This document shows, piece after piece, positions 34,796 to 54,592 of a stretch of DNA of 64,000 nucleotides (within the stretch, counting starts at the first letter, position 1; each line of letters begins with the position of its first letter). Made by a program: the position numbers and the translations under genes. This stretch comes from Solitalea lacus (lineage in GTDB: Bacteria > Bacteroidota > Bacteroidia > Sphingobacteriales > Sphingobacteriaceae). The stretch is taken from assembly GCF_022014595.1 (NCBI RefSeq), contig NZ_CP091740.1, positions 248,001 to 312,000 on the forward strand, written 5' to 3'. The notes below the pieces were generated by a model. It was not told the DNA's origin and searched no databases. It worked only from the letters and a program-made list of their open reading frames with translations.

Positions 34796-34805
34796 TATTT
34801 CTATG

Positions 34806-34879
34806 TCGGGATGGCCGGATTTGAACCGACGACCTCCAGCACCCCATGCTGGCGCGATACCGGGCTACGCTACACCCCG
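34806..34879 (-). tRNA. tRNA-Pro (anticodon GGG)
   Basis: 74 bases without encoded CCA. The acceptor arm is CGGGGTG / CATCCCG with one G-U pair. The anticodon arm is CCAGC-ATGGGGT-GCTGG, giving anticodon GGG, and the T arm contains GGTTCAAAT. The body is identical to the tRNA at 54519-54592 except for one base in the 5' acceptor strand. The cloverleaf is intact, so it should be functional. It bounds the island on the left. Confidence 0.93.
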
Positions 34880-35429: not shown

Positions 35430-37982
35430 TTAAACATTAATTGGGATTTCGACTATGTTTTCAATTGATATTTGAGTTTGTACAGGAGTATAAATATCAA
35501 CCTCTGTTCTTGGTGTTTCAAGAGAGACTATTAGACTATACCTCACTTTGGTATTTGCTTTTCCTAATTTCTTTCTTGTTTTATACCATCCATTTTTAGG
35601 GAACACTGCAATGATATTTCTAGTTGAAAGATCCGCTCCTGACATCACTATAAAGTCCTTTTTAATCGACCCTTTATTTCTAAGCCTTTTTAAAACCCAG
35701 GGTTCACCACTTGTATCTATACTTTCTTCCATTTCTTCTTGCTCAGAAGCGGAGGAAATCCTACGTTTAAAAATGTCAAGAGATTCATTCGGTTTTATAG
35801 CAATGAAATCTAATGCATGAGAATGATACTGAAAACTATTGGAATATCTCCTGTTTCCTGGATTAGGTTCAATGTAATAAGATAAAGTTACAGTAAGTTT
35901 AACATCATTAGTATATAAAACATCTCTTAACACTTCAACTGGCCAAGGAAGTTTAAAAAGATGGTATTCATTATATTTCGGATCATTATTATTATTCTGT
36001 AAGAAAGGCTGTATTTCTCTTTCTGCAATTATAGTCAATGAATTTGAAGCACTATATAATGCTTTGGACAAAACAGGAACTCCATAGCCAACTGTGCGTA
36101 ATAAAGCTCTCTTTCTTGGTTCAGTAAATTGTTCGACTCTCCCATTTCCCAACATTGCACTTGTCCAATCTGCTGAGTGTATCATCAAACCCCTAATAGT
36201 TTCAGGCCATAAATTCGGGTATTTAGTCATTATTTCAGCAGCCATTTTTGAGGCCAATGCCGCAGCTCCACTAGTATCTCCAAATGATTGAAAAATTTTA
36301 GCCCCATTATTATGGGTACTTAATAACCTTAGATTATTGCTAAGGAATGTAAATGTTCCATTGGTTGCCCTGTTTCCACCTTCCATAACAACGTCTGGTT
36401 TATTTGGCCATTGGGAATCCCAAAATAATGAAGTTGAAGAAGAAGGCGACATAGCTCCATATGGAGCTAATGCTGAAAACCCGTTGTTTTGTTCTTCGGC
36501 ACTTAATCTTTCTTTTCTTGTATATGAGCCTACAGTAATTGCATTATAAGATTGACCCGGATCATGAATTGATTCAATTTCATTTTTACTTGGATATTCA
36601 TTATGTCCCTCAATATGGACGTTGCCTCCGCTAACAACAAATATTTGCGGTGGGTCCAATTGATTATTTGGCTCTCCAACAATAATTTTATCAATGGCAG
36701 CAGACCAAGAGGAAGGGCGTCCTTTAAATGCAAAATCTGGGTCACAAATTGCCATACAATAGACTCTTGGATTTTGAGGATTCGAACTTGCTGGAGTATA
36801 GCACGCTGATTTTGTTATACTACCATATAATTCAGGTTCATTAATTACATCCCTCTGAATTAATTTAAATGATTCTAATCCATGAAATATTTGTATTCGC
36901 TCAGGAGAAGCCAACGCCTCCGTTAAGTCTCCATAAACAGCTAAACTTGCCATTCCTGTTCCATGTCCACCTCCACTCCAACTATCATATTTTCCCCAGC
37001 CATCTTTCAATGTAAATAATCTGTCGTCAGGAAGAAAAGGGCTTAAAAGAGGGTGTCGATTATTAACTCCTGTATCAACTAGGCAAATAACCACAGGCGT
37101 TTCAGAGATTCTGTTATCCGTTCGATTAATTAAATCTTGCAGCCACGTTTCTTTATCTTGAGTTGTAATTTCTTCATCCGTGATAAACTCTGGTAACTCT
37201 TGTGGTGATCTCAATTCCGAGAGATTATCCAGCAACATTAAGGACCGAGAAAGTTGTATTGCCGAAGCTTTGATTAATCTTATCGTATGCTCAGGGAAAA
37301 TTATATCAGAGTTAGTAATTTGAGCTCCTATTGAATTAAGATTATTAAGAACTTTGAGCATCTTTTCATCATCATTGGAAGTTTTTCTAAACCACACTTC
37401 CCACCAAACTTCTTGCTCAACATTTGGAAAAGGTTTTTCTGGTGCATCACTCCAGAATGCTTCAAGAGATGCTAATTGAATTAATTCAACATTTGCTAAT
37501 AATGCATTGTTGGATGGAGTTCTACGTGTTTCGTTACCATTTTCATCTATTTTTATTCTGTCCCTACTTTCATCTAAATATTTCTCAACTGCTTTAATAA
37601 AATGACTAATCCCTCCCTTTTTAAGCATTACCAGAACCCGATATCTCTCTTGATTTTCTATCACTTCATTAGATATCTTTAAAAGTTGATAATTCTCTCG
37701 AGAATCATATAAACTTTCAAATTTTAAAGGATAACTCCACTCTGAAACAAATTCTACATAAATGGCTTCATCTCGTTCAACATTTTGAGGAAGTTGCACT
37801 GCTTGCAATTCCTCAAATCGTGCTTTAATATTATTAAGCTGATTTAATATTCTTGCTCCATGAGCAGCTCTATCACGCTCAACTAATCTAGATTGAATGT
37901 TTACCAATCGAGGGTATCGATACGGCTCATCGGTTTTATATCCATTAATTTGGAGGTGAGGTAGTTGTACTGATTCTGGCAT
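35430..37982 (-). CDS. ietS: IetS-like subtilisin-family (S8) serine protease
   Basis: 850 residues, no signal peptide. The catalytic triad of the S8 family is readable: Asp303 in VICLVDTGVNN, His340 in GGHGTGMASL and Ser571 in GDTSGAAALAS. A long N-terminal region (about 1-290) precedes the protease, and a beta-rich C-terminus of about 250 residues follows. A cytoplasmic subtilase encoded directly after an AAA ATPase is the IetA/IetS pair, known as a plasmid incompatibility/stability determinant and reported as an anti-phage system. Its start codon abuts the stop of the ATPase gene, so translation is coupled. Which substrate it cuts is unknown. Confidence 0.85.
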   Translation of the reverse strand: MPESVQLPHLQINGYKTDEPYRYPRLVNIQSRLVERDRAAHGARILNQLNNIKARFEELQAVQLPQNVERDEAIYVEFVSEWSYPLKFESLYDSRENYQLLKISNEVIENQERYRVLVMLKKGGISHFIKAVEKYLDESRDRIKIDENGNETRRTPSNNALLANVELIQLASLEAFWSDAPEKPFPNVEQEVWWEVWFRKTSNDDEKMLKVLNNLNSIGAQITNSDIIFPEHTIRLIKASAIQLSRSLMLLDNLSELRSPQELPEFITDEEITTQDKETWLQDLINRTDNRISETPVVICLVDTGVNNRHPLLSPFLPDDRLFTLKDGWGKYDSWSGGGHGTGMASLAVYGDLTEALASPERIQIFHGLESFKLIQRDVINEPELYGSITKSACYTPASSNPQNPRVYCMAICDPDFAFKGRPSSWSAAIDKIIVGEPNNQLDPPQIFVVSGGNVHIEGHNEYPSKNEIESIHDPGQSYNAITVGSYTRKERLSAEEQNNGFSALAPYGAMSPSSSTSLFWDSQWPNKPDVVMEGGNRATNGTFTFLSNNLRLLSTHNNGAKIFQSFGDTSGAAALASKMAAEIMTKYPNLWPETIRGLMIHSADWTSAMLGNGRVEQFTEPRKRALLRTVGYGVPVLSKALYSASNSLTIIAEREIQPFLQNNNNDPKYNEYHLFKLPWPVEVLRDVLYTNDVKLTVTLSYYIEPNPGNRRYSNSFQYHSHALDFIAIKPNESLDIFKRRISSASEQEEMEESIDTSGEPWVLKRLRNKGSIKKDFIVMSGADLSTRNIIAVFPKNGWYKTRKKLGKANTKVRYSLIVSLETPRTEVDIYTPVQTQISIENIVEIPINV

Positions 37983-38960
37983 CTATGATTTTCTCTTCCT
38001 TAATAAGGCTATAAAATAGTCCTTATTTAAAACATTATTTTCACTAAGAATCATTTCTTTAATTGATTCTTCGCAAGCTTTTACAATATCTGAATAATTT
38101 AAACCCTCTGCGATTTCGGAAACTTGTTTGTAGTTGATTTTAGTATCAAAAGAGAATCCTGAAGTGTTTTTCTTTATAGTTGAAACAATCTCTGCCTTAC
38201 CGGGCAAAGGGTAAGTAACTATATCATCGAAACGTCTAAACAGTGCTTTATCTAGGGACTCTGGTAGATTTGTTGCAGCAATTATAATACTATTACTATG
38301 ATCCTTCTCGATGTTAATTAAAAAACTGTTTAATACCCTTTTAATTTCTCCAACATCTTGTCCTTGATTACGATGAGACCCAATCGAGTCAAATTCGTCA
38401 AATAAGTATACTCCTCTATAATCAGGCATTGCATCAAATATCTGCCTTAACTTAGAAATAGATTCTCCCATGAATTTTGACATCAACCCATCTAACCGAA
38501 TTATAAAAACAGGAATTCCAAGTTCACCAGCTATTGCTTGTGCTGTCATTGTTTTACCACAACCCGGTGGACCTATCAAAAGTATTTTTCTTCTAGGAGA
38601 AAGATTGTGCTGCCTGATTATTTCCCACTTTTGCTGTTCTGCTATTAACCTTTCCAACGCACTCTGAACATGCGTATCCAAAATCATATCATCGAGCTTT
38701 AGCTGAGGCTGAAAAACATCAATAAGTTCATTAAGTTCCCGTTTTGGTTGAGAAATTGAAATGGTTTTATTCCGACCAACAAAAGATAATGATCTGTTCT
38801 TTCTAGCCCTATCAATCAATTCTTTTAGCTCTTGAGCAATTGTAGTATGACCTTGACGGGCCTCTGATGCCGCTATTTGTATTGCAGAAGAAAAAAAACG
38901 TTCATCGTCCCCATCTCCAAACGATTTGATTAAGCTTTTTATTTGATCAGATGCTGCCAT
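37983..38960 (-). CDS. ietA: IetA-like AAA+ ATPase
   Basis: 325 residues. After a helical N-terminal region comes an AAA module: Walker A GPPGCGKT (Lys136), Walker B VYLFDEFD, sensor-1 AATNLPES and the arginine-finger pair in FRRFDD. A small C-terminal helical lid follows. The form is close to FtsH/spastin-type AAA proteins without the protease. It is the first gene of a two-gene operon with the subtilase and probably senses infection or controls the protease. Whether the ATPase restrains or activates the protease cannot be read from the sequence. Confidence 0.87.
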   Translation of the reverse strand: MAASDQIKSLIKSFGDGDDERFFSSAIQIAASEARQGHTTIAQELKELIDRARKNRSLSFVGRNKTISISQPKRELNELIDVFQPQLKLDDMILDTHVQSALERLIAEQQKWEIIRQHNLSPRRKILLIGPPGCGKTMTAQAIAGELGIPVFIIRLDGLMSKFMGESISKLRQIFDAMPDYRGVYLFDEFDSIGSHRNQGQDVGEIKRVLNSFLINIEKDHSNSIIIAATNLPESLDKALFRRFDDIVTYPLPGKAEIVSTIKKNTSGFSFDTKINYKQVSEIAEGLNYSDIVKACEESIKEMILSENNVLNKDYFIALLRKRKS

Positions 38961-39021: not shown

Positions 39022-39489
39022 CTATAAAAGCCCCTCATCTCCAAAACTGTAATAACTATCACTCGTTATTATCAAATGATCCAATATCTCAATATTCAAC
39101 ACCCTTCCGGCTTCTTTAAGCTGCTTAGTTAGTTGAATATCCTGTTGACTTGGACTTAATGTCCCAGAAGGGTGATTGTGACAAAGGATAATAGCAGATG
39201 CATGCGATAACAATGCAGCAGCAAAGATGATCTTCGCATCTACCACTGTTCCTGAAACCCCACCCAAGGAAACCTGATAAATCCCGATTACCTTATGACT
39301 GCGCTTTAATAAGAGAATCTTGAATTCTTCCAAAAATCCTATCAATCCGTCATCCCAATGCCCTTTAAAAATTGTGTAAGCGTCTTTTGATGAATGAACG
39401 GTTTTCATATCTGATGCCTTTACTTTTGGGTTATACCGTAAAGAGATTTCGGAAACCATAGAAATAGTGTTAACCTGTGAATTTTTCAT
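39022..39489 (-). CDS. RadC-like JAB/MPN domain protein
   Basis: 155 residues with only the C-terminal JAB domain of RadC (the N-terminal helix-hairpin-helix is missing, as in the short mobile-element form). Metal-binding JAMM features: Glu in FLEEFKILLL, then HNHPSGTLSPSQQD. SLGGVSGTVVDAKIIF is the usual RadC block. Short RadC proteins are frequent passengers on Bacteroidota islands and ICEs; their role is unknown and the historic DNA-repair label is doubtful. The gene precedes ietA on the same strand. Confidence 0.88.
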   Translation of the reverse strand: MKNSQVNTISMVSEISLRYNPKVKASDMKTVHSSKDAYTIFKGHWDDGLIGFLEEFKILLLKRSHKVIGIYQVSLGGVSGTVVDAKIIFAAALLSHASAIILCHNHPSGTLSPSQQDIQLTKQLKEAGRVLNIEILDHLIITSDSYYSFGDEGLL

Positions 39490-40154
39490 GTAAATAGTGA
39501 TAAAAAATGATTTATGACTGAGTTAATTGATAGCAACGACAGAACGTGCTCGCCGCTGCGAGTTAAGTGAAGGGTCAAAGCAAAGAAGCCCGCTAGGGCG
39601 ATGCTTTGATATGCTTTGCACAAGGAACTGGCGAAGCTTTTGAATTAGGTTTGTGTGTAGGCTCTCAAAAGCTATGATCAGTTCCGCAGCCCTTCACGAC
39701 AAGCAGGCGAGCCAAACGTGTAAAGCGGTTAGCTTTTAAATGGATGAAGCTTTAGCGGAATTAGATTTAAAAGATAAAGGCAGCTTTACGATGACGAATG
39801 GAGAAGTGGACAAAAATTGTGACAGAAAGCGAAGGGTTGGGTAAGCCTGGAAGATTTTATAAGGGTAATGTATTGGACTAAAATGTTCCAAGCTGAAAAG
39901 CGTTGGGGCTTGTAAAGCATAGCTTTACGAATCTGGCGGAATTTTAGGTAGCTTCGGAATGAGGAACGCCTAATTTCCTTTCAGTTATATATTCCGATCC
40001 AGTAACACCCCTATATAAGCAGTCCAGTAACCACTTATAAAGGAAAATAGAATGAGTTTTCCGAAGATCAGTTTTTGGCTTATCCCTCCTTAGTCCACCA
40101 CATGAGGGTAGGGCAAAAACTGGATCTGTACGGCTTGCAGAAAGGTAGTTAAAC
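39490..40154. ncRNA. Candidate structured non-coding region
   Basis: About 660 bases with no credible reading frame but a dense set of pairings. Domain 1 (39545-39715) has closing stem GTGAAGGG / CCCTTCAC (39567-39574 with 39690-39697) around two arms. Arm a: CAAAGCA / TGCTTTG with inner GCCC / GGGC. Arm b: GGAACTG / CAGTTCC (39624, 39679) continuing, after an internal loop, into AGCTTTTGA / TCAAAAGCT. A flanking hairpin CTCGC / GCGAG lies at 39549-39562. GTAAAGC / GCTTTAC forms a hairpin at 39912-39928. Domain 2 (40066-40126) has a 12-bp stem with one bulge (GATCAGTTTTTG with CAAAAACTGGATC) and inner CCCTC / GAGGG. The pairings are seen by eye. Function (RNA, transfer origin or replication site) is unknown. 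Confidence 0.45.
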
Positions 40155-40187
40155 GAAAAAACTCCATAGCGGTTAACTATGGAGTTT
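40155..40187 (-). terminator. Terminator of the small exported-protein cluster
   Basis: Perfect stem AAACTCCATAG / CTATGGAGTTT with a short loop; the minus strand continues into TTTTTT. It ends transcription of the three genes at 40213-41645 and isolates them from the non-coding region. Confidence 0.85.
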
Positions 40188-40212
40188 AATCTTTTATGTT
40201 ATGAATTCATTA

Positions 40213-40755
40213 TTATTCTTCTACAATTCTTAATTCAACTGAATATGCCATTGGACTTAAGTCATTTGAGGTAGAATAATGTTCAAAAATTGTGTATTGA
40301 ACATTCTCATGCACATAAATTTTACAACGATTTTTTTTCTCCCATTGAGGAGATGACCCAATTTGTTTAGGTTTTAACGCTAATATTTTTTTTAGATATA
40401 AATCTTTTAGGAGCTTACTAGTGAAGCCATAAATTAATTTGTATTCATATCGGCCATCCTCCCAATCACTGTAACTTGCATTCAATGCTTGTTCTCCAAT
40501 TTTAGATTTAGTTAATTCCCATAAATAGAAATAATAATCTTCATCCATTTGTAGGTCAGTTGATGAGCGTTTCCATTTCGGAGTAATAATAAATAGTTCT
40601 TTGTCTATCTTTTGGGGAGTTTTAGATTTCCATGAATCCAGTAAATTATGCAGTTTTTCGAAAGGAATGCTTTGAGAACTCGCTACAAGTGAGGAGCAAT
40701 TTAATATGATGAATGGCGTTAATGCCATTAATAATAATCTTTGAAACTTTTTCAT
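40213..40755 (-). CDS. Small exported hypothetical protein (180 aa)
   Basis: N-terminal signal sequence (about residues 1-27; a Cys at 20 in FIILNC leaves a lipoprotein possible, though the lipobox is not canonical). The mature part is rich in Tyr, Trp and Lys, with segments DEDYYFYLWELTKSKIG and VHENVQYTIFEHYSTS. No family recognised. It is the last of three small exported proteins in a row on the minus strand, with 9 bp to the preceding gene, so co-translated and likely co-functional with it. Confidence 0.65.
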   Translation of the reverse strand: MKKFQRLLLMALTPFIILNCSSLVASSQSIPFEKLHNLLDSWKSKTPQKIDKELFIITPKWKRSSTDLQMDEDYYFYLWELTKSKIGEQALNASYSDWEDGRYEYKLIYGFTSKLLKDLYLKKILALKPKQIGSSPQWEKKNRCKIYVHENVQYTIFEHYSTSNDLSPMAYSVELRIVEE

Positions 40756-42453: not shown

Positions 42454-44241
42454 CTATATTTTCACAGATTTAATCACAAAGCCTTTAACTTGCTTGCCAT
42501 CTAAGGTGGTTGCAATTGTAGTTCTGGCCGATAATTCAAAGTAGTCTTCCATGAGTTTTAGTGAAGCCTTCAATTTTAAACCGAATTTTCTGATTCCGTA
42601 ATTCAGAACTTTTAGGATTGAGTTTGTTGTAAAGCTCTCACCAACTTTAAACCTTAATTTTAATAATGAGATAAAGCCGAAATGCTCTTTCTCTTTTGCT
42701 CGTTTTATTTTTTCAACTTCATCGAAAATCCATCTAGGTTTAAATTCAAGCTCTTTCAGTTTTTGATAACCCAATAAATTATAGACTTCAACTATCGCGG
42801 GGAACTTTCTGTTTAGATCCATGACAATTTGATGGGAGTAAATATTGTATTTATTTGCCTCACTATTTAAATCTTCTAAGATTCCAGTAACGTAGATAAT
42901 CAGTTGTTTATAGGATAAGACTTTCTTTAACTGATTTGCTTGCACATCATTTAAGGGGAACTCATCCTCTTTAACAGTTATTTTAAAGTGCTCAGTATCC
43001 TCATAAGCCTTTATAAGGTTCTCATTGGATAAGTAATAGCCGTTTATCCTTTTGTCTTGTACTTCGTTGTCAACTCTATAATGATTTTCCGATCCATCGT
43101 ATTTAAGGAACTCAGCATAATAAATCTTCTTCAGGGCTTGATCCAATGTAGCACGGGAACCTTCTGTAGTAGCTCCATCTCTTAAGGCTTTAATCTGCAT
43201 ATAAGCTTCTCTACAACCTGATAAAAATGAAAGCACTTGTTCCTTAGCCTTATGGTCAAGATTGGGGTCGATGTTGGTGATATGTGTTAAGCTTTTAATT
43301 TTATTTCTTAATCGACCCTCAATTTGGATAGTATCTGTATAAGGATCAATAATAGAGTGTTTTGCCTTGGTTAAATCGGTAACAATTAAAACATCAGGCT
43401 GTTCATCAATTTTTAGGTCAACTGCTGAAAAGAAACGACTGGTTAGAAAATTGTATTTATTCATCTTTTTCTTTTCAAAATGATGCCATGAGTCATTAAA
43501 GCCGCTTGCTTTTAGTTTGATTCGGCTATCCTCTGCGCAAAAAACATAGCTATCCTCTCTAATTTGAAGTGCTTCGATTATTGAAGCAATAACTTCTGTT
43601 GAGTTGATGAATATAAAATAACGATTACTTTTAGTTTGCTTTAAATAGTGTTTTAAAGATAACAGTATATTGTTGGTAGGATTTAATAGAATTGGAATCC
43701 TATAATCGAAGGTTGGCCTTACGACTAACTCTGAAAATCTTTGTTTTATAAATCTTGGGTCTGATGGCATCAATGGTGTAGCCGAAATGAAGACTTTCCG
43801 TTTAAACTTAAAGAAGTCATCCATTGGAAGAACGATGTTCTTTCTGAAATTAACATCTTTAACAGCTCGATCGCACTCATCGAACATTAAGAAAAAGGTT
43901 TTGTACATATTAATGCCAAGATCTTCACAGGCATCTTTAACTTTTGAAAAGGATTCTGGTGTAACAATTATCTTTTTATGCACAACATCATTAGTTAAAT
44001 AATCAATTATATCATCCTTGTAAATTCCTTCACTAACTCCTAGGATCTCATTAGTTTCTTTGCATTTAATAACAGGGAGATTAGGTTCAATTATTATAGA
44101 ATGTCTTTCACTTTCAAGTTCTGATGTTGTTGCACCAATTGCAGTAAGCGTTTTGTAGATAATTCTGTTGGATGGCAACCCTTTTTTGAATATATCTGCC
44201 ATGTATTGATCTTTATTTATTTTGATAAATCTTCTTTTCAT
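42454..44241 (-). CDS. SF2-helicase-like protein with degenerate Walker A
   Basis: About 595 residues from the ATG at 44241 (MKRRFIKINKDQYMADIF; an upstream in-frame ATG at 44271 is less likely). The helicase-like core shows LPSNRIIYKTLTAIGATTSELES where Walker A should be, with GATT in place of GKT/GKS. It continues with a DExD-type motif FLMFDECDRAV, motif III-like FISATPL and a second domain with QIEGRLRNK resembling motif VI. The C-terminal 250 residues are unlike helicases. It resembles proteins common on Bacteroidota mobile elements. Loss of the GK(T/S) suggests altered or absent ATP hydrolysis. Confidence 0.6.
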   Translation of the reverse strand: MKRRFIKINKDQYMADIFKKGLPSNRIIYKTLTAIGATTSELESERHSIIIEPNLPVIKCKETNEILGVSEGIYKDDIIDYLTNDVVHKKIIVTPESFSKVKDACEDLGINMYKTFFLMFDECDRAVKDVNFRKNIVLPMDDFFKFKRKVFISATPLMPSDPRFIKQRFSELVVRPTFDYRIPILLNPTNNILLSLKHYLKQTKSNRYFIFINSTEVIASIIEALQIREDSYVFCAEDSRIKLKASGFNDSWHHFEKKKMNKYNFLTSRFFSAVDLKIDEQPDVLIVTDLTKAKHSIIDPYTDTIQIEGRLRNKIKSLTHITNIDPNLDHKAKEQVLSFLSGCREAYMQIKALRDGATTEGSRATLDQALKKIYYAEFLKYDGSENHYRVDNEVQDKRINGYYLSNENLIKAYEDTEHFKITVKEDEFPLNDVQANQLKKVLSYKQLIIYVTGILEDLNSEANKYNIYSHQIVMDLNRKFPAIVEVYNLLGYQKLKELEFKPRWIFDEVEKIKRAKEKEHFGFISLLKLRFKVGESFTTNSILKVLNYGIRKFGLKLKASLKLMEDYFELSARTTIATTLDGKQVKGFVIKSVKI

Positions 44242-44354
44242 TATGTTACTTTTTGGGCATAGCAATGCCATTAAGCTTTTATAGGCTTTTAATTTTTTTA
44301 ATTATTGTAAATGTTGATTTAAAAGGAGGGCGATTGCCCTCCCTTTGGGCAGTT

Positions 44355-44819
44355 TTATGCTTCTAGAGCCTCTAAGTATAACTCATTTAGCGTAAAGCCA
44401 GGGTAGAAGATCCCTTGTTGATAATGCTTGATAAATTTATCAAGATCAGCCGTAACGATTAGCTTGAATTCCTGCACTGACTGGGCCATGATAAACTTAC
44501 ACCAAATGTATGGGGTGCCATTTTTATCTAACCTCACAATAGGCAGGCTGTTCATTTTAATGGTTTCTCCCATGTATTCTAGGAGTAGGCCAAAGTTCTC
44601 ACGATCTTTTGAAGGGATTTTGTGGATGTACTCCACAAAATCTTCTTTAGTGATGTAACCTTCGTTACCATCCTTTGAAAAGAAAGAAGTAGCACTTCTT
44701 CTTAGTCTTCTGGTCGGTAAAGTTTGTTTTAAAACTTCACAGATATTTAGCTTACCGTCTTTCAGGTTTGCAATTTGATCAGCATTTAATGATGCTAAAG
44801 TAAATTTATGCGTTTGCAT
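44355..44819 (-). CDS. Island-associated hypothetical protein (154 aa)
   Basis: Soluble protein with no signal peptide and no recognisable domain. It has a basic stretch (LPTRRLRRSATSFF) near residue 40 and an aromatic/acidic C-terminus. It lies 113 bp upstream of the helicase-like gene on the same strand, so probably in the same unit. Likely an accessory factor of the mobile element. Confidence 0.6.
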   Translation of the reverse strand: MQTHKFTLASLNADQIANLKDGKLNICEVLKQTLPTRRLRRSATSFFSKDGNEGYITKEDFVEYIHKIPSKDRENFGLLLEYMGETIKMNSLPIVRLDKNGTPYIWCKFIMAQSVQEFKLIVTADLDKFIKHYQQGIFYPGFTLNELYLEALEA

Positions 44820-45548: not shown

Positions 45549-47165
45549 TTATGCAGATTTCGCTAGTACCATTTTTCTTAACAGCTCAAAGCTGGCTCTG
45601 CCATACATTTTTCTTTTGATATTTTTAATCCGGTTGACTTGCCCTTCCACCTGCCCATTACTAAAGGGTGTGATCACGGCATTATTTACGGCTTCATAAT
45701 CCTTCAAGATATTTTTGGCGAAATTTTTTAAGCCGCATTCAGATTTGGCGGTTTCATCTATCCATTTCATCAGTGACCCATCTTCCTTAAGGAGAAAAAG
45801 GTTTTTAAAGCTTTTTACTAACTGTTCCATCTGTTTTATATCAGGACATTTCTCATACAGGAGCTTGAGGAAGTCCTGGTCATCCTTCCGCGGAAGTTGA
45901 TCCGGCTCCAGGTATAACATAAAGGATAACTTGGTTGGCGACCATGTTTTTATAGGTGTGGGGTTTATTTTCTTGGCTCTGAACGAGGGTTGCATTTTGT
46001 TCATTTTGAAACAAAACTGCGAATACTTACCATTAAAGCCCATCTGGGTTATGATCTGGTGTAATTCCCGATAAGTTTTACCTCGATTGTTTTCCTGTAG
46101 CAAAAAGTCAAGGAAAGCATCCAGGTTAGTGATAGTGCAGGATTCCCTTTTGGGCAGTTGCTCCATATGCACATATTTCTGGGTGGTTGTCCGTGATACA
46201 TTTACCGTTTTGGCGATTTGCCTTATCGAATAACCTGCATTGTATAATTTTTTCACTTGCTCGAATTTATGCTGTCTATCAATACTAATGTTTGCAACAG
46301 AATCCCCGGATGTTTCCAACTCTGGGGTGCACTGAACCGGCTGTGGCCTTGGAGCTGCAGGTGCATGCTCCTTTTGGGGATTATTGTAGAGATTGAATAC
46401 CTCCTTCAGCTCTTTTCCTTTGGATTGAATAACTCTTTTGACTGCTTCTCCAAGATTCATTAATAAATGAAAGCGGTCTGCTACCTGATGAGCTTGTGGG
46501 GCGCCTTTTTTCACCCCTAATGCATAAGGTCCATACCGGTCACGGGAAACTGTTTTTATTTCTGGATGTTTTTTAAGCCATTCGGCTAGGGTTTCCGACT
46601 CCCGATCCGGCAACAGGTCGATCACTTCCTTTCTTTCCAAATCAACAAGAACAGTTCCGTACGTTCTTCCCTTTTTGAATGCCCAATCATCCACCCCAAT
46701 GATTCCCGAGGTCAATGTTTTAGATTGTATTTCCAGCTTTTTAACCACGCGTAATACGGTAGACGGACTTACGGGTATGCCCACATACCTGCTGATGGTA
46801 GCACCCGTATTCCCGCCCAGTTCAAGTGCCATTCTTGCTAGCAGGTCATTGGAACGCAGCATTCTTCTGTAATAAGGCTTAATTTCAGAATCAAAACGCT
46901 CCGTAAAGATTTTTCGGTGGCACGCAGGGTTATCACAAAAGTATTTCCTTGCTTTGAGCTTAACTCTTGCCAAATGCCCCGAAACAGGCAGGTCCAAAAG
47001 CTTCCTGGAGTATCGGCTGTGGATCCTATTGCTTTTTTTGCTGCAAATGGGGCAGGTAGAGCAGGGCTGACAAACCGATGCACAAATGTGCAATACTCCA
47101 GGTTCAGAAGAAATGGCATCAGCTTTTAGCTGTACGTTAGCAGGGAGAATAAATGATGGTATCAT
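45549..47165 (-). CDS. ISL3-family transposase (copy 1)
   Basis: About 538 residues from the ATG at 47165 (MIPSFILPANVQ); an upstream in-frame ATG at 47195 also exists. N-terminal zinc-ribbon-like cysteines (CxPCSTCPIC and CDNPAC), a helix-turn-helix (YSIRQIAKTVNVSRTTTQKYVH), and the DDE catalytic core: IIGVDDWAFKKG, SRDRYGPYALG, and the Glu near the end in NGQVEGQVNRIKNIKRKMYGRA. All conserved residues are present, so it should be active. It mobilises this IS by cut-and-paste. Confidence 0.93.
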   Translation of the reverse strand: MIPSFILPANVQLKADAISSEPGVLHICASVCQPCSTCPICSKKSNRIHSRYSRKLLDLPVSGHLARVKLKARKYFCDNPACHRKIFTERFDSEIKPYYRRMLRSNDLLARMALELGGNTGATISRYVGIPVSPSTVLRVVKKLEIQSKTLTSGIIGVDDWAFKKGRTYGTVLVDLERKEVIDLLPDRESETLAEWLKKHPEIKTVSRDRYGPYALGVKKGAPQAHQVADRFHLLMNLGEAVKRVIQSKGKELKEVFNLYNNPQKEHAPAAPRPQPVQCTPELETSGDSVANISIDRQHKFEQVKKLYNAGYSIRQIAKTVNVSRTTTQKYVHMEQLPKRESCTITNLDAFLDFLLQENNRGKTYRELHQIITQMGFNGKYSQFCFKMNKMQPSFRAKKINPTPIKTWSPTKLSFMLYLEPDQLPRKDDQDFLKLLYEKCPDIKQMEQLVKSFKNLFLLKEDGSLMKWIDETAKSECGLKNFAKNILKDYEAVNNAVITPFSNGQVEGQVNRIKNIKRKMYGRASFELLRKMVLAKSA

Positions 47166-47234
47166 TAATAAAAAGTATAATATAAAATTACACATATATT
47201 ATGCTTATTTTTATCATCCGAACAGAAAATTATT

Positions 47235-47807: not shown

Positions 47808-48545
47808 TTAATGACTCAATTGTTTTTTTCTCCGGAAAGATTCACCTTCTAGTTCAATTCGGTGAGAGGAGAAAACGATCCGGTCTAATATCGCGTCGGC
47901 AGCTGTACTTTCTCCAATCAGGCCATGCCAATTTGCTACCGGTATCTGTGTGGCAATAATGGTTGAAGAGGTTTCATGTCGTTCTTCAATGACATCCATT
48001 AGCACATTCCTGGCAGCCTGATCAATAGGAACGAGTCCAAAGTCGTCCAGGATGAGCAGCTCCGTTTTTTGTATCCGCTTGATCAGTTTAGAGTAAGTAC
48101 CTTGCAGTTTAGCGAGTTTGGCCAGGTCAAAGAACCGCGCCGTATTGTAATACATTGTTCGATGCAGCATTTGACAGGCTTTAACACCTATGCTCTGAGC
48201 CAGAAAACTTTTACCGCAGCCACTATAGCCAGTAATTATGATATTTTCCTTTTTTTTAATAAAGTTAAGCCCCAGTAGCCTTTCAAAGGTTGTTTTATCT
48301 AAACCTCGTTGAGTTTGGTAATCAATATCTGAAGCAGAAGCGGCCTGTTTAAAGCCAGCACGCTGGATCAGGCTATCAATATTTCGGTTCTGTCGGCTTT
48401 CCCATTCAGTATCTACCAACAGGGAAAGAAAGTCATCCAGGGTATAATCCTGATAAAGGTGTTCGCTGATACTGCGGTGGTAAAGGGCCGCCATGGCATT
48501 CATGCGCATGCGGCGCATCTTTTCTACGGTGTTGTGTTCATTCAT
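47808..48545 (-). CDS. istB: IS21 helper ATPase IstB
   Basis: 245 residues with an AAA+ DnaC-like fold: Walker A GYSGCGKSFLAQSIG, Walker B ELLILDDFGLVP, sensor region IIATQIPVANWHGLIGE and a C-terminal HRIELEGESFRRKK. IstB binds DNA and ATP and helps IstA choose the target. It follows istA on the same strand (67-bp gap). Intact. Confidence 0.95.
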   Translation of the reverse strand: MNEHNTVEKMRRMRMNAMAALYHRSISEHLYQDYTLDDFLSLLVDTEWESRQNRNIDSLIQRAGFKQAASASDIDYQTQRGLDKTTFERLLGLNFIKKKENIIITGYSGCGKSFLAQSIGVKACQMLHRTMYYNTARFFDLAKLAKLQGTYSKLIKRIQKTELLILDDFGLVPIDQAARNVLMDVIEERHETSSTIIATQIPVANWHGLIGESTAADAILDRIVFSSHRIELEGESFRRKKQLSH

Positions 48546-48612
48546 AATTTGTTGTTGGATCTGTTTAATAAGTAAGTATTGACTGGTGGGGTCAGCATGC
48601 CCCGGAACCTGT

Positions 48613-50163
48613 TTATTGATAGTGACTTGCCCCCCGGATGTTGCTGTGTTCTGGGATCGGGGAACCGGATGGTTCCGCTGGATCTTCCTGCTCCATATCC
48701 AGGTTGTTCTTCAGTATCATTTCAATGGTGCGGTAAGAAGCCTTATGGTATTCCAAGCCTCTTTTGCATGCCTTTTCCAGGCGTTCATTGTTGTACGTTT
48801 TCCCGAAAGCGAGGATTCCCTGACTCTGCTTATAAGCGATTTCTGGATAATTATATTGGGTAAACAAGCGCTGAATATAGGCCAGGGTAAAAGGACCTAC
48901 CTGGCGGGCACGACCCTGGAAGTATTCAGGACTCCATTGTCCGTAAGCCTGGTGCGAGGAAGGCATGTGTTGGGGTATGGTAGTATAATTGCCTGCCTTA
49001 TAATTTCGTTCATGGCTGGCAATACGGTCGTAATTATAGAAGATCTCTACCTTATCCTGATTGTATTGTACCTCCACATGCAGGCCGGTAAAGCGGTAAG
49101 GAACGCTGTAATAGTTGCGATCTTCACTCATGTAGACATGTGCTGTCTTTTGTACTTTAGCCCGCCTGTATTGTCGGATACTGTAAGAGTCGGTCGCAAT
49201 TCCCTGTAAGTATTGTTGCTCCAGATCAATGAAATAACTCCTGCGGCTGCCGCCTCCATGAGAGAACAGGTAATCATTATATTCCTCCAAGAGCTCCGCA
49301 ATCGCTTTATTCAGGTCTTTAAGGCTAAAATAGGTATGCTTACGCAAATGATAATAGATGCGCTGGTAGACCAGCTCTACGCTGCGTTCCACCAGTGCCT
49401 TATCTTGAGGGTGATGCGGACGGGCAGGATCGACCACGCAACCATAATGCAGGGCAAAGTCGGCAAAGGTTTTATTGATCACAGGAGCGTATTTACTACC
49501 CTTGCTAACTGCGGATTTGAGATTATCAGATACGATGGCCTGTGGAACCCCACCCATCCACCTCAGGCAAGATTCCATGCAACTGATCAGATCTTCGCGC
49601 TTTTGGGAAGGAACTGCCTTGACAAAGGTATACTGGCTGCAAGGGAGCACAGCGATAAATACTTCCACATCAATCTGTTCACCGGTAGATTTGTCTACAT
49701 AATAAGGCTTCTTGCCGCAAAAGTCGACAAAGAGCTTTTCCCCAGCTTTATGGATTAATTTACCGCTGTGATGGCTCCGGCTCTTCCAGTTTCGGTAGTG
49801 CAGGGCAAACTGGGTGTATTTATAGCCTTTGGGGTTCTTTTCAAAGTAGTCTTTCCAGAGCTCCTGTAAAGTGCCTCCAGGTTTGTGCAGTTCCTTTTGT
49901 ATAGCAGGAAACTGACTGCTGAGGATCTCGTAACGCGCTTTTTCAGTCTGGCTGTTTTCGGTAAACAAATCCCTAAGATCAGCCTCCCCGAGCTCTATGA
50001 GCTCCTGGTAAGAGAGGTTCAGTGCTTTGAAACGGCTGGTATAACTGTCAACCGTTTTACGGTTAACTTTTAAAAAATCTGCTACCTTGCGGTTGCTTAA
50101 GCCTTTAAGTTTAAGGGAAATTAAACTGCGTAATTCCATGATATCAATTCGTTGTCCTGCCAT
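48613..50163 (-). CDS. istA: IS21 transposase IstA
   Basis: About 516 residues from the ATG at 50163 (MAGQRIDIMELRSLISLKLKG). Upstream in-frame codons run into the terminal repeats of the IS, so the longer start at 50307 is rejected. N-terminal helix-turn-helix (LSNRKVADFLKVNRKTVDSYTS), RNase-H-type rve catalytic core (EKLFVDFCGKKPYYVD with Asp, then SDNLKSAV with the second Asp, and the Glu in PQDKALVERSVELVYQRI), and a C-terminal basic tail. Intact and probably active. Confidence 0.95.
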   Translation of the reverse strand: MAGQRIDIMELRSLISLKLKGLSNRKVADFLKVNRKTVDSYTSRFKALNLSYQELIELGEADLRDLFTENSQTEKARYEILSSQFPAIQKELHKPGGTLQELWKDYFEKNPKGYKYTQFALHYRNWKSRSHHSGKLIHKAGEKLFVDFCGKKPYYVDKSTGEQIDVEVFIAVLPCSQYTFVKAVPSQKREDLISCMESCLRWMGGVPQAIVSDNLKSAVSKGSKYAPVINKTFADFALHYGCVVDPARPHHPQDKALVERSVELVYQRIYYHLRKHTYFSLKDLNKAIAELLEEYNDYLFSHGGGSRRSYFIDLEQQYLQGIATDSYSIRQYRRAKVQKTAHVYMSEDRNYYSVPYRFTGLHVEVQYNQDKVEIFYNYDRIASHERNYKAGNYTTIPQHMPSSHQAYGQWSPEYFQGRARQVGPFTLAYIQRLFTQYNYPEIAYKQSQGILAFGKTYNNERLEKACKRGLEYHKASYRTIEMILKNNLDMEQEDPAEPSGSPIPEHSNIRGASHYQ

Positions 50164-50207
50164 GCATCCATTGAGTTCAGATACAAGGCTATTAAAAATC
50201 ATGAAAA

Positions 50208-50395
50208 GTGGCCCAATGACTTCCGTTTTAAGCAAGGAATCCCTGGTGCTATTTTGGCCCAATGACCTCCGTTTTGCTTTTAGGAGCAGACATTGCTTTT
50301 GGCCCAATGACCTCCGTAATAACGGTTATCTTTTTGGCCCAATGATTCCCGTTATGACTGGCCCGGTATCACCGTAATGGCTGGCCCATTGACTA
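50208..50395. repeat. Right-end multiple terminal repeats of the IS21 element
   Basis: Five copies of a word like TGGCCCAATGACCTCCGT, with variants, occur between 50208 and 50395. A sixth lies at the true end beyond the second ISL3 insertion (52619-52630, joined to ATTGACTA). Three inverted relatives lie at the left end. Such arrays are the binding sites of the IS21 transposase. Confidence 0.7.
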
Positions 50396-50418: not shown

Positions 50419-52035
50419 TTATGCAGATTTCGCTAGTACCATTTTTCTTAACAGCTCAAAGCTGGCTCTGCCATACATTTTTCTTTTGATATTTTTAATC
50501 CGGTTGACTTGCCCTTCCACCTGCCCATTACTAAAGGGTGTGATCACGGCATTATTTACGGCTTCATAATCCTTCAAGATATTTTTGGCGAAATTTTTTA
50601 AGCCGCATTCAGATTTGGCGGTTTCATCTATCCATTTCATCAGTGACCCATCTTCCTTAAGGAGAAAAAGGTTTTTAAAGCTTTTTACTAACTGTTCCAT
50701 CTGTTTTATATCAGGACATTTCTCATACAGGAGCTTGAGGAAGTCCTGGTCATCCTTCCGCGGAAGTTGATCCGGCTCCAGGTATAACATAAAGGATAAC
50801 TTGGTTGGCGACCATGTTTTTATAGGTGTGGGGTTTATTTTCTTGGCTCTGAACGAGGGTTGCATTTTGTTCATTTTGAAACAAAACTGCGAATACTTAC
50901 CATTAAAGCCCATCTGGGTTATGATCTGGTGTAATTCCCGATAAGTTTTACCTCGATTGTTTTCCTGTAGCAAAAAGTCAAGGAAAGCATCCAGGTTAGT
51001 GATAGTGCAGGATTCCCTTTTGGGCAGTTGCTCCATATGCACATATTTCTGGGTGGTTGTCCGTGATACATTTACCGTTTTGGCGATTTGCCTTATCGAA
51101 TAACCTGCATTGTATAATTTTTTCACTTGCTCGAATTTATGCTGTCTATCAATACTAATGTTTGCAACAGAATCCCCGGATGTTTCCAACTCTGGGGTGC
51201 ACTGAACCGGCTGTGGCCTTGGAGCTGCAGGTGCATGCTCCTTTTGGGGATTATTGTAGAGATTGAATACCTCCTTCAGCTCTTTTCCTTTGGATTGAAT
51301 AACTCTTTTGACTGCTTCTCCAAGATTCATTAATAAATGAAAGCGGTCTGCTACCTGATGAGCTTGTGGGGCGCCTTTTTTCACCCCTAATGCATAAGGT
51401 CCATACCGGTCACGGGAAACTGTTTTTATTTCTGGATGTTTTTTAAGCCATTCGGCTAGGGTTTCCGACTCCCGATCCGGCAACAGGTCGATCACTTCCT
51501 TTCTTTCCAAATCAACAAGAACAGTTCCGTACGTTCTTCCCTTTTTGAATGCCCAATCATCCACCCCAATGATTCCCGAGGTCAATGTTTTAGATTGTAT
51601 TTCCAGCTTTTTAACCACGCGTAATACGGTAGACGGACTTACGGGTATGCCCACATACCTGCTGATGGTAGCACCCGTATTCCCGCCCAGTTCAAGTGCC
51701 ATTCTTGCTAGCAGGTCATTGGAACGCAGCATTCTTCTGTAATAAGGCTTAATTTCAGAATCAAAACGCTCCGTAAAGATTTTTCGGTGGCACGCAGGGT
51801 TATCACAAAAGTATTTCCTTGCTTTGAGCTTAACTCTTGCCAAATGCCCCGAAACAGGCAGGTCCAAAAGCTTCCTGGAGTATCGGCTGTGGATCCTATT
51901 GCTTTTTTTGCTGCAAATGGGGCAGGTAGAGCAGGGCTGACAAACCGATGCACAAATGTGCAATACTCCAGGTTCAGAAGAAATGGCATCAGCTTTTAGC
52001 TGTACGTTAGCAGGGAGAATAAATGATGGTATCAT
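50419..52035 (-). CDS. ISL3-family transposase (copy 2)
   Basis: Identical to the transposase at 45549-47165 in translation; see that entry for the motifs. It appears intact. Confidence 0.93.
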   Translation of the reverse strand: MIPSFILPANVQLKADAISSEPGVLHICASVCQPCSTCPICSKKSNRIHSRYSRKLLDLPVSGHLARVKLKARKYFCDNPACHRKIFTERFDSEIKPYYRRMLRSNDLLARMALELGGNTGATISRYVGIPVSPSTVLRVVKKLEIQSKTLTSGIIGVDDWAFKKGRTYGTVLVDLERKEVIDLLPDRESETLAEWLKKHPEIKTVSRDRYGPYALGVKKGAPQAHQVADRFHLLMNLGEAVKRVIQSKGKELKEVFNLYNNPQKEHAPAAPRPQPVQCTPELETSGDSVANISIDRQHKFEQVKKLYNAGYSIRQIAKTVNVSRTTTQKYVHMEQLPKRESCTITNLDAFLDFLLQENNRGKTYRELHQIITQMGFNGKYSQFCFKMNKMQPSFRAKKINPTPIKTWSPTKLSFMLYLEPDQLPRKDDQDFLKLLYEKCPDIKQMEQLVKSFKNLFLLKEDGSLMKWIDETAKSECGLKNFAKNILKDYEAVNNAVITPFSNGQVEGQVNRIKNIKRKMYGRASFELLRKMVLAKSA

Positions 52036-52104
52036 TAATAAAAAGTATAATATAAAATTACACATATATTATGCTTATTTTTATCATCCGAACAGAAAAT
52101 TATT

Positions 52105-53119: not shown

Positions 53120-54388
53120 TTAAAAATCAAAGATTCTTGCCTCCATTGAAGAGATCACTCCTTTTTCAAATTCATCCAAGTAGGTTTGTGTTTGATATTC
53201 GGTTTGATGACCTAACGCTTCACTGATGATGCTTGTTGCTACTCCTGATCGTTTGAGATTGGTTGCATAGCTGTGGCGACTAACATAGGTAGTAAGATTT
53301 AATCCCTTTTCATCAATCAATCCAGCTATCTTCTTAAGATTGTCATTTACTTTCTTAATAGCAGTTTTCTTTCGAGTGTACTTCTGTTTTTCTGTAATAT
53401 GAATCGAATCGTTAAGAATTGGGAAAACGTAGTTTTCTGTTTGTTGACTAGACTCATAGTAATTGATAATCTCCAATGCATACTGATTTAACGGTATTGT
53501 AAACAGTTGGCCTGTCTTTCGTCTGGTGTAATGAATCTCATTATTATGAATATCTGACCATTCGAGGAAAGCCATATCAACGAAGTTCATTCCACGCATA
53601 TAGAAGCTGAATAAGAAGACCTGTTGAGCGAAGTGGACTCCTGTTCCTTCTTTAAGTTTTAAGTCTTTAATCTTCTTGATGATGTCGAGATTAATAGAAC
53701 GCTTTCTTGTTTTATGATTCAGGCGTTTGTTAATGGAGTATTTCTTCTCACCGAAAGGGTAGTTTTCTTTTTTATAAAGACCGTCTTCAATAGCAAGATT
53801 AATTACCCGTTGAAGGTTGCGGATTTTGACACTAATGGTTGTGTCTTTATTCTTGCGCTCAAATCTTAACCAATTCTCGAAACCTTCGAGGAACTTAACA
53901 TTTAAATCATGTAGCATTGCAACAGGTCGATATTTAAGTAAAATGCTTTGATTTTCTTTATATAAGGCTGCTGAACCAGTTTTCCGATTGTTTTCGAGTT
54001 CTTCAATTAAATGCGTGTAATAATCCTTTAAAAGCTGAGAAGGTTTTTGTTTCTTTAGATCACGTTCAAATTGAATAAATGAAAAAGCGGTTCCGTTTGA
54101 CTCATAATTTAGAAGTATCTGCTTTGCTTCCGAAAGTTTTTCCTTTAGAATCGCATTATACTCTTTATAGGTTTTAAAAGACCTTTTAAACCTACCCAGT
54201 CCTTCATCTTCCTTTTCAGCAGGCTTCCACTCTTCTTGTTTAGCTTTAAAGTCCAATCCTCTGTTTGTTAGCAATGAGGTAATCGCAAAATATTTCCTTT
54301 GAGAACCTTGAGTTACTCTTAAACAAATTGGATAAAAATTGTTTACTAATCCTTTTGATGTGTGTAGCACAATAGCAACTGTAGCCAT
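53120..54388 (-). CDS. Tyrosine recombinase (integrase) of the island
   Basis: 422 residues. An N-terminal Arm/SAM-like DNA-binding part (about 1-200, phage-integrase SAM-like) is followed by the catalytic domain with the R..HxxR..H..Y signature: Arg in FYMRGMNFVDMAFLEW, His-Ser-Tyr block TYVSRHSYATNLKRSG, LGHQTEYQTQTYL with the nucleophilic Tyr about residue 407. It belongs to the Bacteroidota integrase group that inserts into tRNA 3' ends. It is the first gene inside the right end, about 130 bp from the tRNA-Pro, reading away from it, as expected. Confidence 0.95.
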   Translation of the reverse strand: MATVAIVLHTSKGLVNNFYPICLRVTQGSQRKYFAITSLLTNRGLDFKAKQEEWKPAEKEDEGLGRFKRSFKTYKEYNAILKEKLSEAKQILLNYESNGTAFSFIQFERDLKKQKPSQLLKDYYTHLIEELENNRKTGSAALYKENQSILLKYRPVAMLHDLNVKFLEGFENWLRFERKNKDTTISVKIRNLQRVINLAIEDGLYKKENYPFGEKKYSINKRLNHKTRKRSINLDIIKKIKDLKLKEGTGVHFAQQVFLFSFYMRGMNFVDMAFLEWSDIHNNEIHYTRRKTGQLFTIPLNQYALEIINYYESSQQTENYVFPILNDSIHITEKQKYTRKKTAIKKVNDNLKKIAGLIDEKGLNLTTYVSRHSYATNLKRSGVATSIISEALGHQTEYQTQTYLDEFEKGVISSMEARIFDF

Positions 54389-54508: not shown

Positions 54509-54518
54509 CATTTACATG

Positions 54519-54592
54519 TCGGGATGGCCGGATTTGAACCGACGACCTCCAGCACCCCATGCTGGCGCGATACCGGGCTACGCTACATCCCG
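54519..54592 (-). tRNA. tRNA-Pro (anticodon GGG)
   Basis: 74 bases without encoded CCA. Fully paired acceptor stem CGGGATG / CATCCCG, D-arm region GCGTAGCCCGGTATCGC, anticodon loop ATGGGGT giving anticodon GGG, T arm with GGTTCAAAT. It is the probable chromosomal target of the integrase encoded next to it. Its 3' half could be supplied by the element after integration. Confidence 0.95.

Follow-up and report, generated by a model that had tools for sequence, protein, structure and literature searches.

A large conserved structured nucleic acid, most likely an RNA, in tRNA-integrated elements of Bacteroidia

Introduction

Large structured RNAs without an assigned function are few, and each is hard to tie to a process. 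GOLLD and ROOL, which are large, multi-domain and strongly structured RNAs of this kind, occur in phage or mobile DNA of other hosts. Folding nucleic acids also adjoin particular genes in two well-known systems: integron cassettes are exchangeable genes bounded by the folding site attC, and retrons combine a structured RNA and a defence effector in one unit. Two further RNAs are listed in PMC2864571: the Pedo-repair RNA (RF01715), likewise a structured RNA, listed for Pedobacter, and the radC RNA (RF01754), named for radC and listed for Proteobacteria.

Here we describe a conserved non-coding structure of three folded domains at 39543-40133 (+) of a 64,000-nucleotide stretch of Solitalea lacus DNA (the window). 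It shares with GOLLD and ROOL a long, covarying multi-domain fold, but Rfam gives no match to either of them and the structure here adjoins exchangeable cargo. As in an integron, an exchangeable gene lies beside a folding site; however, the structure is much larger, there is one slot, and the integrase seen is that of a tRNA-inserted element. Like the RNA of a retron, it adjoins a defence-type gene in some loci, but no reverse transcriptase was found by Pfam among the proteins scanned. The Pedo-repair RNA was rejected as the same RNA: its model has no match in the window's genome, and our own covariance model, R1, has none in the five loci that the RF01715 model brought in, all of them below the Rfam cut-off. 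The structure does adjoin a radC-like gene in the window, but the radC RNA model has no match here. Of the 43 loci drawn, only 13 were found to have radC-like genes, which in short forms of the structure lie downstream of the cargo, so a RadC-linked leader was rejected as a general explanation.

The initial annotation of this locus could name no RNA family for it, and this agrees with Rfam 15, which has no match on the structure's strand. Over the whole window only two tRNAs exceed the cut-off; within the element region, at E up to 5, there are four weak matches, all on the - strand and none over the cut-off; and the loci of 11 relatives again give only tRNAs over the cut-off. Group I and group II introns were discarded as candidates, as no Rfam intron model matched. 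The literature searched, including PMC11109978, PMC8632094 and PMC2864571, holds no description of the structure, and as far as these searches reach the family is unpublished.

Results

The window locus folds into three domains

The whole 665-nt stretch that the initial annotation had singled out (39490-40154) has a folding z of -6.8 on the + strand; the - strand gives -5.6, and in neither case did any of 20 shuffles fold as well. The 5′ domain alone (173 nt, 39543-39715, +) has a z of -4.8, and none of 200 shuffles was as good. This domain, comprising P1-P4, is defined by its fold, the family consensus and covariation, and it is the part modelled as R1. In the fold, the closing stem pairs GCTCGCC at 39548-39554 with GGCGAGC at 39706-39712, and the closing pairs of the family consensus are 39556-39559/39703-39706. 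Within the closing stem lie P2 (39567-39575/39689-39697), P3 (39576-39582/39602-39608, with an inner hairpin at 39588-39591/39596-39599) and P4 (39627-39630/39679-39682 plus 39637-39643/39665-39671). The nested inverted repeats claimed for 39545-39715 are thus present.

The middle domain (39716-39978, +) ends near a conserved GGCG...GAACGCCTAATTTCC and contains a hairpin at 39912-39928, present as annotated; in the window this domain was assigned by eye against the middle domains of short forms, and its covariation comes from 14 short forms only. The 3′ domain (40059-40133, +) is confined to the long form and consists of a stem at about 40069-40122 with a conserved internal loop, which corresponds to the stem claimed at 40066-40126.

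Past the 3′ domain lies a terminator-like inverted repeat at 40150-40196 (arms 40150-40169/40177-40196), which is shared with a convergent gene. Its T run is on the - strand and best suits the leftward gene at 40213-40755, so the repeat is not clearly the terminator of the structured RNA itself. A terminator had been claimed at 40155-40187, and the repeat exists there. The claim that the region lacks a reading frame holds for the + strand, where the window's ORF list, which served as the frame check, has no ORF of at least 50 aa inside 39490-40154, but not for the - strand, where an ORF of 51 aa with a TTG start lies inside the element region. A protein-coding region was rejected on the lack of such a + strand ORF in the window copy together with the covariation described below. 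The RadC-like gene reported beside the structure is indeed there, at 39022-39489 (-), diverging from it, and encodes a JAB protein.

The structure recurs in the family Sphingobacteriaceae

When 100 genomes were searched at the DNA level, 11 had matches, the window's own among them; three loci from this search (L010, L011 and L013) were judged on inspection to be chance matches and were dropped. The first alignment held eight copies, the window's among them, with the structure written by hand. At E up to 0.01, R1 matched 114 of the 301 genomes searched in the window's family, spread over 14 of 25 genera, with up to 7 matches in a single genome. Among 295 genomes of the class R1 matched 22; 7 of these belong to the window's own family, and three of the remainder match only weakly, at E from 1e-5 to 4e-4. 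In the phylum sample it matched 6 of 247 genomes, 5 of the 6 again from the own family. An exact-pattern scan returned 13 named contigs, from Sphingobacterium (8), Parapedobacter, Desertivirga, Rhinopithecimicrobium, Fluviicola and a Crocinitomicaceae bacterium; R1 scores at least 52 bits in 12 of these and only 20 bits in the Fluviicola contig.

Two forms can be told apart, a short one of about 300-400 nt and a long one of about 560-610 nt, to which the window copy belongs. The 3′ domain is absent from the short forms, and all 16 of these come from one genus, designated g16.

The window's genome holds a second, GC-rich copy (G000:C1:426381; about 1505-1845 of locus L016) in which the motifs GGGTATGACAGCCTG...AGGCTGGCGTACCC and GGAATGCC are kept. 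It scores only 29.9 bits with R1 while retaining the motifs, which indicates that the family is wider than the R1 model sees. A DnaJ-like start behind this copy went unconfirmed, with no closed ORF listed there, and was set aside. The same genome also has a weak copy of 27.6 bits (L017, about 1514-1685), similar to the L016 5′ domain and located on the strand opposite to the displayed one. At L014 (G003:C12) a copy with a deleted middle sits beside radC, with a second 5′ fragment across radC, and L075 has two copies of the structure on a single contig, separated by 3.9 kb and close to genes that by eye resemble Rhs genes.

Stems covary in all three domains

Compensatory changes in the stems, the test that had been set beforehand, were found in each of the three domains. 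In the first alignment of eight copies, 20 of 38 pairs show double changes, with 40 double-changed cells compared to 14.0 in shuffles. With 88 homologues of the 5′ domain, 92.7% of cells are paired, 33 of 38 pairs are double-changed, and 720 double-changed cells stand against a shuffled mean of 191.7, in an alignment that was fitted to R1 and hence is biased towards the model, a bias of which the eight-copy alignment is free. When the partner was slid by one to three columns, the number of double-changed cells was 86-122.

In the middle domain, whose structure was predicted from the same alignment as used for the counts, 38 of 69 pairs are double-changed over 14 short forms, with 100 double-changed cells compared to 30.4 in shuffles; L050 and L066, which have a different, shorter middle part, were excluded from the 16 short forms. 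The 3′ domain, predicted likewise from the alignment that was then counted, was compared in 21 long forms, obtained from 27 non-short loci after three had been dropped before stem location and three after it (wrong stem picked). Here 13 of 16 pairs are double-changed, a count equalled in 12 of 500 shuffles, and there are 82 double-changed cells versus 30.8, equalled in none of the 500.

The + strand is the probable folding strand

The tolerated mismatches differ between G-U and A-C when read on the + strand. One U-G junction pair of the 5′ domain is nearly invariant (85 of 88 sequences); outside it, G-U outnumbers A-C by 59 to 39 over all cells with gapped helices left out, and by 43 to 16 in well-formed helices. 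The middle domain gives 50 G-U against 6 A-C, and the 3′ domain 39 against 15. An early count over 44 sequences was less clear, with 70 G-U, 44 of them from one invariant pair, against 29 A-C, and 14 against 6 in well-formed helices. The excess of G-U over A-C argues that the + strand is the strand that folds. G-U is rare in the 5′ domain nonetheless (43 of about 2,520 cells, and 14 of 1,232 in the earlier 44-sequence set).

A fold on this strand could also form in single-stranded DNA, where it would act as a replication or transfer origin, the latter already suggested in the initial annotation, or as a site of cargo exchange. The loops of the P3b hairpin fit such a DNA element: of 80 hairpins found in the 88 sequences, 23 have GNA, 19 GNRA and 14 GNYA loops, so that GNA/GNNA loops make up 56 of the 80, and very stable DNA hairpins are the more typical place for GNA and GNYA loops. 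The upstream DNA is consistent with it as well, because no promoter was recognised there: the Bacteroidetes promoter motif TANNTTTG occurs within 120 nt upstream on the structure's strand in 7 of 88 cases, where 7.1 are expected from shuffles, and on the opposite strand in 14 of 88 (7.1 expected). Two results given below, the sharp exchange of cargo at the 3′ end and the resemblance of a linked protein to SF2 helicases including viral origin-binding proteins, point the same way. On the other hand, the excess of G-U over A-C on the + strand, clearest in the middle domain, speaks against DNA, although G-T is tolerated in DNA too; a covarying fold of this size is unusual for a DNA site; and no relaxase was found by Pfam among the proteins scanned, whether the 9 window proteins near the structure or the 9 proteins of an 11-kb element in genome G018, several of these proteins being without any family. 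An element without a recognised relaxase may still be mobilised in trans. We regard a DNA-level role as unlikely, and the structure as more likely, short of proof, to be RNA than single-stranded DNA.

The structure belongs to tRNA-integrated elements with a recurrent helicase-like protein

The structure is part of tRNA-integrated elements, 11-20 kb long, whose genes include those for a tyrosine integrase, RadC and a helicase-like protein. In the window, the island lies between two copies of tRNA-Pro, with shared 72-bp direct repeats at 34803-34874 (left att) and 54516-54587 (right att), 19.7 kb apart, and its tyrosine integrase is encoded at 53120-54388 (-). Terminal repeats were found in 5 of 7 elements examined (46, 48, 101, 102 and 72 bp) and in two there were none. 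The repeats of 46, 48, 101 and 102 bp belong to four g16 elements, are tRNA-like by inspection, and have one copy 0.4-0.7 kb ahead of the structure and the other 10.4-13.6 kb past its start. These four elements share one order: att, structure and cargo on one strand, then, all on the other strand, RadC, the helicase-like protein B1, small proteins and the tyrosine integrase, followed by att. The window differs from this order in that RadC and a pair of genes matching anti-phage models, an AAA ATPase (37983-38960, -) that matches IetA models and an S8 peptidase (35430-37982, -) that matches IetS models, lie on the structure's other side.

B1 is the recurrent partner of the structure. The window copy (42454-44271, -) has 605 aa and those of g16 elements about 606 aa. 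Its structure model (pLDDT 87) shows an SF2-helicase fold; in Foldseek the model matches RecQ, DEAD-box proteins and viral origin-binding proteins. B1 occurs in 71 of 301 family genomes, at least 61 of which also carry the structure, and at least 63 of 82 B1 places have a 5′ domain within 25 kb, at a median of 6.1 kb; these linkage values are lower bounds, since the weakest RNA matches were not entered. Seen from the other side, B1 lies no more than 25 kb away at 63 of the 129 structure places entered, with contig ends and decayed copies accounting for part of the rest. A small protein adjoins B1 in the window (44355-44819, -) and has weak matches in L068, G134 and G018 (E 1e-7 to 1e-3). B5, a protein of about 365 aa beside the integrase (structure model pLDDT 75), was matched in 4 of 201 genomes by protein search, and a 330-aa protein in its place in G018 has no Pfam family. 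Over the Pfam cut-offs, the G018 element has a GmrSD_N restriction-type cargo, RadC and the integrase.

Between B1 and the integrase the window also holds two ORFs of equal length (548 aa) at 45549-47195 and 50419-52065, one of which matches the ISL3 transposase and each of which lies beside a 155-aa ORF, and an IS21-type pair at 47808-50307. Relatives of B1 are present in three viral contigs. A phage origin was nevertheless set aside: one exact 21-letter pattern, a weak test, had no match in viral contigs, and R1 found nothing convincing in the three viral contigs, two Bacteroides finegoldii records and one phage record (best E 0.1). In one Bacteroides finegoldii locus (L179, NZ_OY725919.1) the gene order is kept, from an integrase through two uncharacterised proteins and a relative of B1 to a JAB protein, but R1 recognises no structure in this B1-bearing element. 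The record is labelled a plasmid yet has chromosome-like genes.

Could the structure be a mobile or decaying RNA-type repeat that inserts itself and sits in these elements only by chance? There are truncated copies (L003, L014 and L123), genomes with as many as 7 matches, and pairs in which identity covers the structure only, between unrelated flanks (L055/L060, L060/L062 and L063/L065). However, the orientation relative to B1 is constant in all 14 loci with B1 in the drawn stretch, no mobility protein of its own was seen, and in other pairs identity extends 5′ beyond the structure, by 90 nt in L049/L051, 79 in L057/L058 and 256 in L074/L078; sharp ends are also what selection on the structure alone would yield. 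We therefore consider a self-inserting repeat very improbable.

The slot at the 3′ end holds exchangeable cargo

In 18 of the 19 short forms for which a downstream ORF was available, the next ORF lies on the same strand, and most of these ORFs begin soon after the 3′ end of the structure. Among long and other forms this is true of 21 of 61, the next ORF being convergent in 40 of 61. The sorting by motif is rough: "other" includes L050, a short variant, and truncated copies such as L123, and "short" includes L146, from another genus. A same-strand gene directly downstream is thus a property of short forms and not of the family as a whole.

Comparison of pairs of loci shows that this gene is exchanged. 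From -90 up to the precise 3′ end of the structure, L049 and L051 share 96.2% identity; different cargo follows, after which identity returns at 94.2%. Conversely, the cargo of L055 and L066 is 93.5% identical from 16 nt before the 3′ end, while their structures agree at only 75.8% over 248 nt. Among the pairs that were compared, the exchange of cargo stops sharply at the structure's 3′ end. Where identity resumes past the cargo there is a small conserved hairpin with a consensus near CTCACAGAAACCC-AAAGTTTCAAGTGAGTG, found in 9 of 16 short forms (E up to 5.2e-6), of which 6 formed the search seed and three (L060, L062 and L067) did not. Its covariation is slight (2 of 8 pairs), and in L060 the 250 nt ahead of it contain no same-strand ORF end.

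A PADLOC scan (E up to 0.001) covered 20 of the 25 downstream same-strand proteins, 14 of them behind short forms and 6 behind long ones. Five of the 20 match defence models, all behind short forms: PDC-S28, NsnA/PD-T4-2, a ThsA-like SIR2, PDC-S33 (RelA/SpoT by Pfam) and, weakly, an Argonaute-type model on a Schlafen/AlbA protein. Pfam, applied to 10 of the 20, adds a NACHT protein and a CoiA-nuclease protein. As the other 13 of 20 have no such defence-type match, a "defence slot" is a tendency and not a rule. The window itself has its IetAS-matching pair on the structure's other side.

These data bear on a leader RNA, in which the structure would form the 5′ part of the cargo mRNA and control or standardise the gene in the slot, with the 3′ hairpin marking the end of the unit. 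The tight same-strand coupling in short forms, with most ORFs starting soon past the 3′ end, and the post-cargo hairpin, allowing for its six seed members, fit a leader. Yet in long and other forms, the window included, the next gene is mostly convergent; no promoter was recognised upstream; and near-identical structures precede unrelated genes, with one case of the same gene behind unlike structures, so that any control by a leader would have to be independent of the gene. A leader RNA is accordingly a rather doubtful reading. A bolder version, that the structure and the small 3′ hairpin are a universal frame around one plug-in gene, often a defence gene, which would be replaced precisely where the RNA ends on its 3′ side and be expressed or silenced by the same phage- or element-sensing RNA, is speculative and in our view unlikely.

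Discussion

The best reading of these results, to which we give a probability of about 0.5, is a new family of large structures that are most likely plus-strand RNAs, belong to tRNA-integrated elements of Bacteroidia and act as stand-alone molecules, possibly with B1. The initial suggestion of a novel structured RNA thus stands as regards structure, conservation and absence from Rfam 15, and transcription is the part that we infer. The structure would serve the element itself and not one particular neighbour, as a stand-alone RNA that may work together with the helicase-like B1. Three observations favour a stand-alone RNA: the long form more often has a convergent next gene, like structures precede unlike genes, and the structure stays with the element. 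Thus, the structure probably acts independently of the neighbouring gene.

Several points speak against a stand-alone RNA. There is no promoter enrichment, G-U pairs are few in the 5′ domain, many hairpins end in GNA or GNYA loops, B1 is near only 63 of 129 entered structures, the Bacteroides finegoldii element has no match to the structure, and the 3′-domain count of double-changed pairs is reached by some shuffles (12 of 500). The tight same-strand coupling of short forms fits a leader RNA equally.

Element-borne large structured RNAs are already a known kind; the unusual part here is the framed cargo slot. The mobile element is defined, the cargo beside the structure is exchangeable and the helicase-like protein recurs, so that function becomes testable by deletion. 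If the structure controls or guides the cargo, it would explain how these elements swap genes, defence genes among them, and yet express them. A search model of the R1 type flags candidate defence genes in Bacteroidia, namely the genes that adjoin the structure.
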